A stretch of 5,036 nt of DNA, taken from the NCBI GenBank assembly GCA_946482355.1, contig CAMLRE010000195.1, forward strand, positions 1 through 5,036. The letters are read 5' to 3'. Below are positions 254 through 5,036 of this stretch, piece after piece. The position numbers and the translations under genes were made by a program. The stretch is from an uncultured Bdellovibrio sp. Its GTDB lineage: Bacteria; Bdellovibrionota; Bdellovibrionia; Bdellovibrionales; Bdellovibrionaceae. Each line of letters opens with the position of its first letter. The stretch's first letter is position 1. Under the pieces are notes generated by a model. The model saw nothing but the letters and a program-made list of their open reading frames with translations. It made no database searches and was not told where the DNA came from.

Positions 254-448
254 TTACTTACCGGCGCACTCAGTGCATTTTTCAGTAGAAGCTTTTGCTT
301 CTGTACCACAAGCGCATTTAGCACCCGCTTTATCACACGCACAAGCAGCGCCTGAGCTATGATCGTGTTTGTGGCCCGACATATGACCGCAGCCAGATGC
401 AGTGACAAAAAGTGTAAATAGAATTGACGTTGCTAGGATTTTTTTCAT
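254..448 (-). CDS. small Cys/His-rich lipoprotein, probable metal binder
   Basis: A 64-residue protein with a lipoprotein signal peptide: Lys2-Lys3, a hydrophobic stretch at about 4-16, then TASGC with Cys20 as the likely lipidated residue (Ala at -3 is acceptable but not the usual Leu). The mature part is only about 45 residues. It starts with a His cluster (H22, H26, H28, H30) and continues with two CxC motifs (C36/C38, C45/C47) and one CxxC (C58/C61). This spacing resembles metallothionein-like or metal-chelating small proteins, so binding of Cu, Zn or a similar soft metal on the periplasmic face of a membrane is inferred; no enzyme domain is present. The ATG at 446-448 is preceded by GGAG (complement of 454-457) five bases upstream, which fixes the start. 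It stands alone, divergent from the nuclease gene, and has its own terminator at 191-223. I do not recognise a named family. Confidence 0.85.
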   Translation of the reverse strand: MKKILATSILFTLFVTASGCGHMSGHKHDHSSGAACACDKAGAKCACGTEAKASTEKCTECAGK

Positions 449-574: not shown

Positions 575-1507
575 ATGAAAAAGCCTATGATTATCAATTC
601 TATTTTGGCCGTGGTGCTTACGAGCAATTTAGCTTACGCCCAACTGCAAGAAGGTTCTGGATTAACAGGATCTACTGATGTTGTGATTGGTGCTGCGCCT
701 ACAACGTTACCGGAAGAAGCGTTTGAACCATACACACCTAGAAACAAAGTTTATTATATTAAAATTCACAAACTGGCCGACAAAGTGATTTCAATTGTTT
801 CAAGTCTTAATATGTTTTTAATGGATAACTTGATCGCTAAAAATAACGAAGCCATGTCGTTATTAGATTTTGAATACCGCGAAAATCCAGAAGTGACTGT
901 CGAAGCTTATGACCGCATTAAACATTTCGGTGGCTGGGTTAAAAATAAAAAAAGTGGCGATTGTTTTAATACGCGTAATAAAGTTTTAGTGCGCGATAAT
1001 GTCGGAACTATCGTTTTAAAAGAAGATAACAAGTGCTCTGTGGCTCACGGTGAATGGGTTGACCCTTATTCGGGAGTTACAATGACCGATGCGCAAGCCG
1101 AAATTCAAATCGACCATATGGTTCCACTTCGTGAGGCTTATGTTTCCGGAGCTTATAAATGGACGTTTAAAGAACGTTGTTTATATGGAAACTATCTTGG
1201 TTATAAAAACCATTTAATCTCAGCAAGTGGCGACGAGAATAACGAAAAAAGTGCCAAAACACCTGAAGATTACATGCCGCCAAAACAAGAGTACAAATGT
1301 GAATACTTAAAAGACTGGTTAAAAATCAAATCATTCTGGGGCTTAAGCTTAGTGCCTGAAGAAATGAAAGCGATCAAAGAATTAGTGGCTGAAAATCACT
1401 GCGACACTTCAGTATTTTCTGTGACGAAGAAAGAGCTTGAAGAGCAAGAAAACTTCTTTAAAGCGAACGCTGATCTTTGCCGTATCTACGAACAGAATCA
1501 AAAATAA
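575..1507 (+). CDS. secreted HNH endonuclease (DUF1524/GmrSD C-terminal type)
   Basis: A 310-residue protein with a Sec signal peptide (Lys2-Lys3, hydrophobic core at about 7-20, likely cut after AYA at residue 22). The C-terminal half carries the signature of the DUF1524 branch of the HNH (beta-beta-alpha-metal) nucleases: GEWVDPYSG at 159-167, the catalytic core IDHMVPL at 179-185 (D180, H181), then a segment with N212 and GDENNEKS at 219-226, and PEDYMPP at 230-236, which matches the family's usual N..K..P..W.PP pattern. H181 is the expected general base, and D180 and the Asn residues are expected to help bind the metal. Residues 23-110 are unrecognised. Six Cys (130, 154, 202, 242, 276, 302) suit disulphides in an exported protein. 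The likely role is extracellular or periplasmic DNA/RNA degradation for nutrients, or attack on other cells; the substrate cannot be read from sequence. The gene appears to be a single unit, closed by a terminator. Confidence 0.88.
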   Translation: MKKPMIINSILAVVLTSNLAYAQLQEGSGLTGSTDVVIGAAPTTLPEEAFEPYTPRNKVYYIKIHKLADKVISIVSSLNMFLMDNLIAKNNEAMSLLDFEYRENPEVTVEAYDRIKHFGGWVKNKKSGDCFNTRNKVLVRDNVGTIVLKEDNKCSVAHGEWVDPYSGVTMTDAQAEIQIDHMVPLREAYVSGAYKWTFKERCLYGNYLGYKNHLISASGDENNEKSAKTPEDYMPPKQEYKCEYLKDWLKIKSFWGLSLVPEEMKAIKELVAENHCDTSVFSVTKKELEEQENFFKANADLCRIYEQNQK

Positions 1508-1526: not shown

Positions 1527-1568
1527 AGATATCGACTGTATAACTAGTGGACATCGTCGATATCTTTT
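1527..1568 (+). terminator. stem-loop terminator after the nuclease gene
   Basis: A perfect 10-base stem, AGATATCGAC (1527-1536) with GTCGATATCT (1556-1565), encloses a 19-base loop and runs into TTTT (1565-1568). It starts 19 bases after the nuclease stop codon. The long loop and short T-run make it weaker than a textbook terminator, but the exact stem and its position support the call. It separates the nuclease from the cassette that follows. Confidence 0.6.
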
Positions 1569-1610
1569 ACTCTGATTTATAATTAAAAAAGCCCGTAGAG
1601 CTTATGAAAG
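1565..1610 (+). promoter_or_regulatory. duplicated leader, copy 1 (promoter/5' UTR candidate)
   Basis: This stretch matches 3722-3767 upstream of the second cassette. The first part aligns at 24 of 29 positions with one gap: TTTTAC, CTG, TTT, TAA and TAAAAAAGC are shared. AGCTTA and AAAG are shared beyond that. Weaker similarity, including a shared CGGCT, reaches about 1628. A perfect TATAAT lies at 1578-1583 inside the conserved part, so it may be the -10 of the cassette promoter; no good -35 is seen 16-18 bases upstream (the region is the terminator stem). AAGC (1589-1592) and GCTT (1600-1603) could form a small hairpin, and the same arms recur in copy 2. Confidence 0.5.
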
Positions 1611-1648: not shown

Positions 1649-2182
1649 ATGAAATTTCTAAGTTTTCTTTTTTTGGCTTTATTTTTAACTTTGCAGGCTC
1701 AGGCTCAAAATCTCTTCACGCTTAAATACGTTGTTGAAGTTAAAATAGCCAAAAATCTTCTGCAAGATGAAATGGTACAAAACCTTTTAGTTAAGCCTGC
1801 TGCAGCCGTCGCAACAATTGCAAGTTCTAATGAAGCCATTATCAGAATCGTCGAACCTACTACTGAAACTATCGATTATATTAATGCTTTAGAAGCCGCT
1901 AATTTATTAACTAAAGTCAGTGAAAACTATGAGTTTCTTGAAGACACTTGCTTAGGGGCACAATGTGCCGGCAAGAAAAAACCTAAATTTGGAATTCCAG
2001 GAAGCAGCGGCGGTCCTAAAATAGGCCCGATCGACGAAGGTGGCGGCGGTGGAATGGATATTCTTCCTAGCACTTGTAAAAAATATGATTTGGACTGTAC
2101 TCCACACCAAAATGGCGAGGATAAACCACCTGCGAAATTTCCGAAGTGTTTTAAAACCGCCCATGGCGTGGTTTGCTTTTAA
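1649..2182 (+). CDS. small secreted protein, Gly-rich with six-Cys tail (cassette copy 1, gene a)
   Basis: I do not recognise the family. The protein has 177 residues. A Sec signal peptide is clear (residues 1-19, MKF start, long Leu/Phe core, likely cut after AQA). Residues about 25-95 form a domain with alternating strand-like and helix-like stretches (VVEVKI; KNLLQDEMVQNLLVKP; AIIRIVEP; TTETIDYINAL) that aligns without gaps to the protein at 3836-4285. Then comes a low-complexity Gly/Pro/Lys segment (about 108-135, including GGGGG at 131-135) and a tail with Cys at 143, 150, 167 and 176, in addition to C101 and C106. Six Cys in the mature part suggest three disulphides after export. The ATG at 1649 has no good Shine-Dalgarno, but the signal peptide and the alignment with copy 2 support it. 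The stop is 2 bases before the next ATG, so the two genes are probably translationally coupled. Function unknown; a ligand or partner of the downstream binding protein is inferred. Confidence 0.8.
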   Translation: MKFLSFLFLALFLTLQAQAQNLFTLKYVVEVKIAKNLLQDEMVQNLLVKPAAAVATIASSNEAIIRIVEPTTETIDYINALEAANLLTKVSENYEFLEDTCLGAQCAGKKKPKFGIPGSSGGPKIGPIDEGGGGGMDILPSTCKKYDLDCTPHQNGEDKPPAKFPKCFKTAHGVVCF

Positions 2183-2184
2183 CT

Positions 2185-3696
2185 ATGAGAAAAATACGCC
2201 TTGCAGCGGCCTTTATAGCCGCTGTAACCATTTACCTTTTTTCGGCGAAGTACTTTCACGATAAAACGATTAATCAAGTCAGAGTGGGCGTAGGCCTTCA
2301 TGAATCTGTTGTAGCCAAAGTTGACCCCGCGCAGGTTCAATCAGCCAATCAGGCCCTGCTTGTGACTAACCTATTTAGCAAACTTGTTGAATACGATAAG
2401 TTTGGCCAACTTCAAGCCGGTATTTCGACAAAGTTTTACTGGCAAGACCATTCTTTAATTTTTGAATTTGGCCAAAAAGTTAAAACCTTTTCAGGACATG
2501 CTATTGATGCTAACGATGCGGCCGTTTCAATTAGAAGATTAATAAAATTAGATTCAAGTATTCACGTCAATCTTAAACTTTTACTGTGCGATATCAAAAA
2601 TGTTAAAGAGGTTTTTTCTGATTGCGATGCAGTCAAAGTTCAAGATAAAAAACTGGTTATCGCACCGAAAGATCCGAAGTTTAAACATTTCTTACTTAAA
2701 GCTCTTACCGCTTCGGATTTTGGAATTGTTCCAGCACAACAGATCGACAAGACGACCTTAGATATTGTAAGTCTTAAAGAAACAAGTGGGGCTTACTACT
2801 TAGATTCGAGAGACGACAAACAATGGGTTTTAAAAGCCAATGCTCATTACCGTATTAACGAAACAACACCTAAAGAAGTTATTCTAGTTAACTTAGCACC
2901 GAATGATATCTGGAATGCCTTTGTTGAAAATAAAATTGATGTTGTAACTACAATATCGCCTGTTGATGCCGACGTTCTGAAGCAAATTAAATCTGTGCCT
3001 GATGTTTCAATGGCTACAACAATGGATTTAAAACTTTACTTTATTAAATTTTCACCAAAGGCTTTACGTGACTTTACAGCTGAACAACGCCTGTACCTAG
3101 GTGAACGTTTTAGAGAAGTTATGAAAGAAAAATACACACTTCCGATTTCATCTAAAGAAACGAATCAGATTTTTTCTGATGTGGGCTACGGGCACTTATC
3201 TCAAGAACAAGAAGCTCAAATTAATTCTTTAAGAGCTCGCGCCAAAGCCGGAGTTTTCAAAAGAAAACCCCAGTTTTATTTTTACCGCTCTGTCGCTAAC
3301 AAATATGCGCCATTCAAAGATATTTCAGAAATTGATCCCGTTTTAACTGACCAACGGCCCTACATGCAAAAACCCGAAGATCGATTGGATTTATTTTTCG
3401 GGGCCACTGACTCGGCTTACGAAGAAAGTCTGGCTTTGATTGGAAGTAACTTTACTCAAGGTAGTTTTGGCACAACCGATTCTGAAGCCGCAGAGTGGAT
3501 GAAAAAATATATTGATACTGATGATGAATCTAAGCGTTTATCAATGCTTCAGGAGCTGCACTTTAAAGCTTTAGAAAATGGCGTGACTGTGCCGTTATTC
3601 AAAGCCCCTTACACAGCTGTTGCACGCAATCATTTTAAGGTGAATCAATCTAAACTTTTTGCAAGTACAGCTTTTTGGAATATTATGAAGGAATGA
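2185..3696 (+). CDS. family-5 extracellular substrate-binding protein (cassette copy 1, gene b)
   Basis: A 503-residue protein of the SBP_bac_5 (OppA/DppA/NikA-like) type, close to the family's usual 500-550. Family marks: VDPAQV at 46-51, NLFSKLVEYDKFGQL at 62-76, the strand LIFEFG and SGHAIDANDAAVSIRR at 103-118 (the 'G.pl.A.DV..S..R' region), and the closing pattern of an SBP with SKRLSMLQELHFKALENG at 449-466 followed by VTVPLFKAPYTAVAR. The N-terminus has Arg/Lys then a hydrophobic segment (about 6-20) without a lipobox Cys, so it is either secreted by Sec or anchored by that segment. Only two Cys exist (C135, C147), conserved in copy 2 and likely to form a disulphide. The family binds peptides, nickel chelates or sugars; the ligand here is unknown. 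The ATG at 2185 is preferred over TTG at 2173 because it aligns with copy 2's start; there is no clear Shine-Dalgarno and the upstream stop is 2 bases away, so coupling is likely. No permease or ATPase gene follows. Confidence 0.88.
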   Translation: MRKIRLAAAFIAAVTIYLFSAKYFHDKTINQVRVGVGLHESVVAKVDPAQVQSANQALLVTNLFSKLVEYDKFGQLQAGISTKFYWQDHSLIFEFGQKVKTFSGHAIDANDAAVSIRRLIKLDSSIHVNLKLLLCDIKNVKEVFSDCDAVKVQDKKLVIAPKDPKFKHFLLKALTASDFGIVPAQQIDKTTLDIVSLKETSGAYYLDSRDDKQWVLKANAHYRINETTPKEVILVNLAPNDIWNAFVENKIDVVTTISPVDADVLKQIKSVPDVSMATTMDLKLYFIKFSPKALRDFTAEQRLYLGERFREVMKEKYTLPISSKETNQIFSDVGYGHLSQEQEAQINSLRARAKAGVFKRKPQFYFYRSVANKYAPFKDISEIDPVLTDQRPYMQKPEDRLDLFFGATDSAYEESLALIGSNFTQGSFGTTDSEAAEWMKKYIDTDDESKRLSMLQELHFKALENGVTVPLFKAPYTAVARNHFKVNQSKLFASTAFWNIMKE

Positions 3697-3835
3697 AAAT
3701 ATAATATACGCTGTACATAGATTTTACACTGGCTTTGTAAATAAAAAAGCATATAGCTTAGCTAAAGACATAAAACCTACGGCTCAAGAGTTGCAACATT
3801 CAAAAACTTTAACAATTGATCTATCGAGGAACACA
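3697..3835 (+). promoter_or_regulatory. intergenic region between the two cassettes
   Basis: No gene is seen. It holds a perfect TATAAT at 3700-3705 (TTGGAA at 3675-3680 is a possible -35, but with a long 19-base spacer and inside the end of the preceding gene), then the duplicated leader (3722-3767), then about 70 bases without recognisable structure, ending with the strong ribosome site GAGGA (3826-3830) for the next gene. I see no clear Rho-independent terminator for copy 1, so read-through into copy 2 is possible. Confidence 0.45.
3722..3767 (+). repeat. duplicated leader, copy 2, with inverted repeat
   Basis: Counterpart of 1565-1610, with the shared blocks TTTTAC, CTG, TTT, TAA, TAAAAAAGC, AGCTTA and AAAG. 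TTTACA (3723-3728) and TGTAAA (3736-3741) form an exact 6-base inverted repeat with a 7-base spacer; this could be an operator or a short hairpin, and copy 1 keeps it only in part. AAGC (3747-3750) and GCTT (3756-3759) repeat the small hairpin of copy 1, here with a 5-base loop. Conservation while the coding regions diverged suggests shared regulation, or just recent common origin. Confidence 0.5.
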
Positions 3836-4285
3836 ATGAAATTTACTGGTATTTTAGCGTTAAGTCTTTTCACAGCTCTTCAAACACAGGCCCAAGCTGA
3901 AACGATTACCGTAGTTATCAAAAAAGGTCTGTTTATGGAACCAATAATCCAAAAACATCTGGTTCAACCCTCTCAAGAAATTACGATTAACAGTGAAAAA
4001 GATGAAGTGACTATTCAACTTATTACTCCGTCTACTTCTACACTTGAGTTAATTGAAAATTTAAAGAGTAATAACATGCTCTTAGAAGCCGCTAACAGTA
4101 ATGACTCTACAGCAAATAGTATCCAACTAAAAAATCCTTCCAAAAACCAACAGCATTATAAACTTAAAGGTTCTGGTCTGATGATTGACAAAGGCGGAGA
4201 AAATGGCAGTGGTGGCGGTGGTGGCGGCGGATGGTCAGGTGAAGGTGGTGGCAAAAACAATTTAACAGGACAAAGCCATGATTAA
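3836..4285 (+). CDS. small secreted Gly-rich protein (cassette copy 2, gene a)
   Basis: 149 residues and related to the product of 1649-2182, but unrecognised as a family. The signal peptide runs from residue 1 to about 21 (MKF start, hydrophobic core 5-15, likely cut after AQA). Residues about 23-85 align without gaps to copy 1 (shared positions around the LVQP/LVKP motif, the I.I.. strand and the P.T.T turn). The tail is different: residues 118-139 are very Gly-rich, with a run of seven Gly at 126-132, and the protein ends without any Cys, whereas copy 1 has six. The ATG at 3836 is chosen because GAGGA lies five bases upstream and because it aligns with the start of copy 1; an upstream TTG at 3791 would add 15 residues before the signal peptide and is unlikely. 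Its last 8 bases overlap the next gene. Function unknown. Confidence 0.78.
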   Translation: MKFTGILALSLFTALQTQAQAETITVVIKKGLFMEPIIQKHLVQPSQEITINSEKDEVTIQLITPSTSTLELIENLKSNNMLLEAANSNDSTANSIQLKNPSKNQQHYKLKGSGLMIDKGGENGSGGGGGGGWSGEGGGKNNLTGQSHD

Positions 4286-5036
4286 ATTGGTGGCAACAAC
4301 TCTAGTTGCCACCCTTGCCTACTTATTAATCTCAAATAACTTTTCGGAAAAATCTATCGATAAAATTCGAGTTGGAGTCGCACTTGGGGATAACTCAGTT
4401 CCAAGGGTTGATCCAGCACAAGTCATATCTGCTGAACAAGCTTTGCTGAGTAATAACCTCTTTAGTGGCTTAATTGAACACGACAAAGTCGGACAAATTC
4501 AAGCAAGTGTAGCGACAAAATTCTACTGGCAAGACCGTTCTTTAATTTTCGAGTTTGGAAAGAAAGCGAGAACAACATCAGGACATTTTATCGATGCTTA
4601 TGATGCAGCAGTCTCAATTAGACGCCTTATAAAACTAGATTCAAATATTCATATAAATTTAAAACAGTTATTATGCGAAATAAACTCTGTTGAAGACGTT
4701 TTTAGAGACTGTGATGCTGTAAAAGTTCAGAATGATAAATTGGTCATCACTCCCAAACCTAAATTTAAGGCATTCCTCGTAAAAGCACTTACTACGTCAG
4801 ATTTTGGAATTATCCCAGCTCAGCAGATCGACAAAACAACACTTGCAATTTCCAGTTTAAAGGAAACAAGTGGCGCATATTATGTAGATACAAGTGATAA
4901 AGAAAAATGGATTTTAAAAGCCAATCTTCACTACCGCATAACTAAAAACACTCCTAAAGAAGTTATCTTAGTTAATTTAAAACCTAACGAAGTTTGGAAT
5001 GCTTTTATCGATAATCAAATCGATATTGTTCCAAGC
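4278..5036 (+). CDS. family-5 substrate-binding protein, N-terminal part (cassette copy 2, gene b; cut by window edge)
   Basis: An open frame from ATG 4278 to the last base of the window, 253 codons with no stop. The translation is an obvious paralogue of 2185-3696: shared VDPAQV (44-49), TKFYWQD (80-86), LIFEFG, the exact DAAVSIRRLIKLDS stretch (109-122), DCDAVKVQ, SDFGI.PAQQIDKTTL and LKETSGAYY, with about two thirds of positions identical by eye and a single one-residue gap. The Cys pair (C133, C145) is at the equivalent place. A hydrophobic N-terminal segment (about 4-19), with no lipobox Cys, matches the first copy. AGGA (4267-4270) lies seven bases before the ATG, and the start overlaps the end of the upstream gene by 8 bases, so translation is probably coupled. 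The C-terminal half lies outside the window, so intactness cannot be judged. Ligand unknown. Confidence 0.9.
   Translation, partial: MIKLVATTLVATLAYLLISNNFSEKSIDKIRVGVALGDNSVPRVDPAQVISAEQALLSNNLFSGLIEHDKVGQIQASVATKFYWQDRSLIFEFGKKARTTSGHFIDAYDAAVSIRRLIKLDSNIHINLKQLLCEINSVEDVFRDCDAVKVQNDKLVITPKPKFKAFLVKALTTSDFGIIPAQQIDKTTLAISSLKETSGAYYVDTSDKEKWILKANLHYRITKNTPKEVILVNLKPNEVWNAFIDNQIDIVPS

Follow-up and report, generated by a model that had tools for sequence, protein, structure and literature searches.

Why should a gene for a solute-binding protein (SBP) follow, twice in succession, a gene for a small exported protein, and what might the two products do together? Here, we analysed a stretch of 5,036 nucleotides (the window) from an uncultured Bdellovibrio sp. 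(contig CAMLRE010000195.1). According to the coordinates of its open reading frames (ORFs), it carries two head-to-tail units, each composed of a gene for a small exported-looking protein and a following gene for an SBP-like protein. The gene layout and the common duplication of the units are shown by the data presented below; the pair exists as described and has the appearance of a single unit. As a tentative explanation, to which we assign a probability of roughly 0.38, we propose that each unit encodes a two-protein periplasmic complex in which the small protein docks on its own tethered SBP. If the pair is a unit, it would represent an SBP that cooperates with a protein partner of its own, perhaps independently of a transporter, in a bacterial group including predators, for which growth signalling is explained only in part. 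It would also be a small, testable system, as two paralogous pairs allow a direct comparison of cross-binding.

Two coupled units with a common origin

In the first unit, small1 (ORF list: 1649..2182, 177 amino acids) and SBP1 (2185..3696, 503 amino acids) are separated by 2 bases. In the second, small2 (3836..4285, 149 amino acids) and SBP2 (4278..5036) overlap by 8 bases; SBP2 covers the first 253 amino acids of an SBP1 paralogue and is cut by the window end. All four genes lie on the forward strand. SBP1 and SBP2 are identical in 168 of 251 residues (67%), and their DNA shows 71 and 73% identity across two blocks of 300 and 272 bases. Nonsynonymous (dN) and synonymous (dS) divergence amount to 0.24 and 3.27, respectively (NG86); silent change is hence saturated, indicating an old duplication and constraint on the SBPs.

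Kinship is less obvious for the small proteins, with 29 of 87 residues identical in BLASTP, partly within the signal peptide. After removal of the signal peptide, the mature domains still align without gaps over 65 positions with a score of 93, a value reached by none of 2000 shuffles (28.8 ± 5.7). Against a profile of unit 1 small-protein domains, small2 scores 36.0 bits, while the best of 999 shuffles reaches 19.6 bits, which indicates that E-values for this composition run optimistic. A similar block, possibly a promoter or regulatory element, is located on the forward strand upstream of unit 1 (1565..1604) and of unit 2 (3722..3760). The local alignment of both blocks scores 34, compared to 16.9 ± 2.35 for Markov shuffles (0 of 5000) and 14-21 for control comparisons with two other intergenic stretches. 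Taken together, SBP identity, the shared small-protein domain and the shared upstream block point to a duplication of the whole unit, which most probably included the upstream element. An earlier note on this DNA had proposed a tandemly duplicated cassette of constant order and tight coupling (a 2-base gap and an 8-base overlap); ORFs, SBP identity, small-domain score and upstream block bear this out.

In a catalogue of 5.8 billion proteins, the SBP1 query yielded 11 relatives among the best 7998 candidates scored. Names given among these listed relatives point to Bdellovibrionales, and the window would, judged by them, most likely stem from a member of this order close to Pseudobdellovibrio; P0006 is a protein of Pseudobdellovibrio sp. 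HCB154 (88%) and an orthologue of SBP1, and P0013 stems from a metagenome-assembled genome of a Bdellovibrio sp. In a midpoint-rooted tree of 13 SBPs, in which SBP2 is represented by half its length only, SBP2 is sister to the group of SBP1, P0004, P0005 and P0006 (support 99/97 and 98/97); P0009-P0011, then P0007-P0008, branch outside the SBP1/SBP2 clade. The duplication therefore probably predates the separation of SBP1 from its HCB154 counterpart. None of the 11 listed relatives falls on the SBP2 branch; as far as this comparison goes, these relatives have either lost unit 2 or lack a catalogue entry for it.

Translation signals were inspected by eye. A GAGGAA-type site precedes small2, for which the ATG at 3836 is the start (the ORF list offers an upstream TTG at 3791), and AGGA precedes SBP2; a translation site was not evident 5' of small1 or SBP1. 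In the case of SBP1, this would fit reinitiation after translation of small1. We also noticed by eye an inverted repeat at 1608-1626 (AAGCCGGG/CCCGGCTT) with perfectly matching 8-base arms and a loop of 3 bases; it lies 22 bases before small1 and is not followed by a T run.

The small proteins and their SBP-like neighbours

The earlier note had described the small protein as unrecognised and exported, which agrees with our results: export signals, judged by eye and hydropathy throughout, are apparent, and neither small protein has a significant Pfam or NCBIfam match. Small1 is composed of a signal peptide (residues ~1-20, by eye), a ferredoxin-like domain (23-98), a Gly-rich linker and a C-terminal Cys tail. 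An AF2 model based on five sequences predicts a beta-alpha-beta-beta-alpha-beta arrangement, as in ferredoxin-like/PII-like folds, for residues 23-98, with strands (E) and helices (H) in the order E23-34, H35-39, H41-48, E53-57, E62-68, H72-83 and E87-98. In blocks of ten residues, pLDDT is 71-91 over residues 21-90 and 68 at 91-100 (model mean 62.7), the remainder being mostly of low confidence. The ferredoxin-like fold is predicted for small1 only, and structural searches with the small1 model found no strong relative. Small2 has a related N-terminal domain followed by a Gly-rich tail.

Six cysteines are present in small1 (C101, C106 and, in the tail, C143, C150, C167 and C176). Its relatives P0001 and P0002 also have six, P0003 has four and small2 has none; the Cys tail is retained in P0001-P0003 and absent in small2. 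Metal-binding residues common to both small proteins were not found among cysteines, the sole residue type compared. These data bear on the possibility that the small protein is a helper, which captures a substrate, e.g. a metal or a murein peptide, and passes it to the SBP. A precedent for a periplasmic donor exists in AztD, which hands zinc to the SBP AztC (PMC6689063), and both the six cysteines of small1 and the occurrence of NikA and MppA among the structural matches would suit such a role. However, the candidate binding residues are not common to both units, as small2 lacks cysteines and tail, and AztD, which works for a zinc ATP-binding cassette (ABC) importer, is a beta-propeller that binds zinc, unlike the small protein as modelled from small1. 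We regard a helper function as rather unlikely.

SBP1 models as a family 5 fold (cluster C; OppA/NikA/MppA-type), and a remote sequence match of the SBP to MppA/OppA/NikA points in the same direction. SBP1 itself has no Pfam match at E <= 1. At this threshold, PF00496 is matched by 3 of the 12 aligned SBP members (best 9.5e-07) and the NCBIfam OppA model by 8 of 12 (best 0.00028); P0006 carries a precomputed PF00496 assignment. For SBP2, the match to the NCBIfam OppA model has an E-value of 3.1e-04 and 19.6 bits, far below the model's cut-off of 947. The N-terminal stretch of SBP1 is modelled as a single helix (residues 2-23), a probable membrane anchor. By eye, a hydrophobic N-terminal stretch occurs in 11 of the 12 aligned SBPs, P0013 beginning after it, and no common cleavage site or lipobox is apparent across the 12; where cysteines occur in this stretch (P0005, P0007, P0008 and P0014), they come after a bulky residue.

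Two further observations concern the SBP-like proteins. Two cysteines 12 residues apart (C135 and C147 in SBP1) are invariant in 12 of 12 aligned SBPs and kept in SBP2. P0014, a remote relative (46% in the alignment), is named after the SgrR regulator in its source, a name that is probably misleading; the protein aligns end to end with SBP1 and begins with a hydrophobic stretch.

The fold and the remote matches also suit ordinary uptake, which we consider nearly as likely as docking: SBP1 and SBP2 would be diverged oligopeptide-type SBPs serving an ABC importer whose genes lie further to the right or at another locus, with the small genes being lineage-specific passengers or accessories of minor importance. 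The numbers of aligned members matching PF00496 and the OppA model support this, the window ends inside SBP2, and no small-protein match bears an NCBI source. Predicted ligands of family 5 SBPs are described as almost only peptides (PMC9602780). A massive expansion of SBP genes has been reported for another bacterium (PMC5994714), so duplicated SBPs alone are not unusual. Against ordinary uptake stand the retention of coupling and upstream block in both copies, the probable N-terminal anchor in place of a cleaved signal peptide or lipobox, and the lack of permease or ATPase genes among the six ORFs scanned of the nine listed in the window.

Could the ligand of each SBP instead be its own small protein, whole or as a released peptide, as in peptide sensing? 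The export signal of the small protein (by eye), its fast evolution and the neighbourhood of an oligopeptide-type SBP would fit. Yet, the Cys tail, a natural peptide source, is not common to both small proteins, and the part that is common appears, on the small1 model, to be a folded domain. Such a domain would hardly be accommodated in the cleft of an ordinary SBP and favours docking over release of a peptide ligand. In addition, 13-21 residues are kept in each 25-residue segment between residues 26 and 250 of SBP1 and SBP2; the difference is fairly even outside the anchor, and a hypervariable patch is missing in the N-terminal half, the half comparable. The earlier note's idea of a released peptide ligand or a self/non-self recognition pair is weakened by these results, and we judge a ligand role to be distinctly improbable.

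Distribution and proposed role of the pair

How constant is the partnership? Small1 has three relatives among 128 candidates, P0001 (98%), P0002 and P0003. A small-protein profile including small2 added only P0015, which is identical to small2 and marked as encoded by the window. P0003 and the SBP relative P0005 share source, contig count and longest contig (lgn; 2; 27,616), as expected if their genes adjoin; this indirect evidence suggests that one relative keeps the pair. As a constant partner of the SBP, the small protein is thus seen in both units of the window and, by catalogue data, in one relative.

Kimura distances for the small domain and SBP residues 29-252 were 0.535 and 0.121 between unit 1 and P0003/P0005 (ratio 4.4), 2.125 and 0.364 between units 1 and 2 (ratio 5.8), and 1.654 and 0.335 between P0003/P0005 and unit 2 (ratio 4.9). 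The small protein evolves four to six times faster than the SBP in these three comparisons, which are non-independent and approach saturation at the largest distances. The factor is similar in each comparison, as would follow from a common history of both genes. Tandem units in which the first gene changes quickly and the second more slowly would also be compatible with an exported effector, for which the tethered SBP-like protein provides immunity or retention. Such a system appears highly improbable: PADLOC yielded no match at E <= 0.1, the small proteins have no significant Pfam or NCBIfam domain, and the SBP models as an ordinary binding-protein fold.

Searches beyond the catalogue yielded remote SBPs at best. 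In genome contigs, 16 pattern stretches were obtained for the single SBP1 query and 39 for the alignment of 12 SBPs, none confirmed as a relative, and viral contig scans with the SBP and small-protein alignments gave 23 and 79 stretches, again none confirmed. Five plasmid records were found with SBP1 (all Neorhizobium, 22-25% identity) and seven with P0014 (four Neorhizobium, one each of Paracoccus, Phyllobacterium and Terrarubrum; 23-33%), all of them remote SBPs and none covering 80% of the query. P0014 had no match in phages, and the small protein P0002 none in plasmids.

Several points weigh against docking. The contact between small protein and SBP is a predicted step, transporter genes may adjoin to the right of the window, and inspection by eye reveals possible cleavage sites in P0006 and P0014. 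No small-protein match has an NCBI source, though the SBPs P0004, P0006 and P0013 have one. Since P0006 is located on a 3.39-Mb contig, HCB154 is probably near complete and the small gene is either lacking or not called there; given this strain, the SBP may work without the small protein. None of P0006-P0014 could be linked to a small protein, but a diverged partner would escape the search: the small1 query did not list the protein of small2, hence a small2-like partner would be missed in distant SBPs. The earlier note's proposals meet a divided outcome here. That the pair is the functional unit accords with its duplication and tight coupling, but less well with an SBP1 orthologue in HCB154 lacking a small-protein match with NCBI source; likewise, a check of co-occurrence finds P0003 and P0005 apparently paired, but the HCB154 SBP without a listed small protein.

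Docking is favoured by order, coupling and upstream block, retained in both copies, and by small-protein and SBP distances that increase together. The apparent adjacency of P0003 and P0005, the hydrophobic N-terminal stretch of most aligned SBPs and the retention of the small domain beside the SBP through the duplication also speak for it. Following this argumentation, the SBP-like protein would be held in the inner membrane by its putatively uncleaved N-terminal helix, and the small protein would dock on its own SBP via the ferredoxin-like N-terminal domain, thereby modulating ligand capture or relaying the ligand-bound state. Translational coupling would coordinate the synthesis of both products. 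Copying of the entire unit, upstream element included, would have led to two complexes acting in parallel, with rapid divergence of the small subunits thereafter. We infer that such a complex acts outside an ABC importer, at least in part. A bolder version, which we consider unlikely, is that, in a lineage of predatory-type bacteria, an oligopeptide-binding-protein fold tethered in the inner membrane now serves as receptor for a co-encoded, fast-evolving folded protein in place of a small solute, the duplicated pair forming parallel channels with separate partners.

Neighbouring genes and known systems

Two further genes of the window were examined. The ORF at 575-1507 (+) encodes 310 amino acids; its product looks exported by eye and has a nuclease domain of the GmrSD_C/HNH type (PF07510, E 8.4e-09, residues 135-263). 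It is a possible secreted nuclease, and no solved-structure relative was found at a telling E-value (best 0.4). The ORF at 254-448 (-) encodes a Cys-rich small protein of 64 amino acids with a lipobox-like SGC after the signal sequence (by eye) and no significant family in Pfam or NCBIfam.

A gene pair of this kind is not named in the open-licence literature, as judged from titles and abstract starts among the matches listed. The main text of one comparative study (PMC11656739) is without the terms substrate-binding, solute-binding, oligopeptide and ABC transporter. Family 3 is reported to account for 69% of the SBPs in B. bacteriovorus HD100 (PMC9602780). Compared to SBP family 5 (PF00496, OppA/MppA/NikA/DppA), SBP1 of the window differs in lacking a Pfam match, in its probable N-terminal anchor and adjoining small exported protein gene, and in having no transporter gene among the window ORFs scanned. 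SBPs that stimulate transmembrane receptors have been described as signal carriers with a part beyond transport (PMC9602780); in the window, no receptor gene was recognised, and the SBP itself appears tethered. By description, the units resemble Bd0108/Bd0109 of the Bdellovibrio hit locus, where, in the same bacterial group, a small exported protein is encoded beside an exported partner and Bd0108 binds its neighbour Bd0109 (PMC4267844; PMC3818213). In contrast to the pair in the window, Bd0108 is intrinsically disordered, and Bd0109 combines a putative pilin-like N-terminus with a YD-repeat motif.

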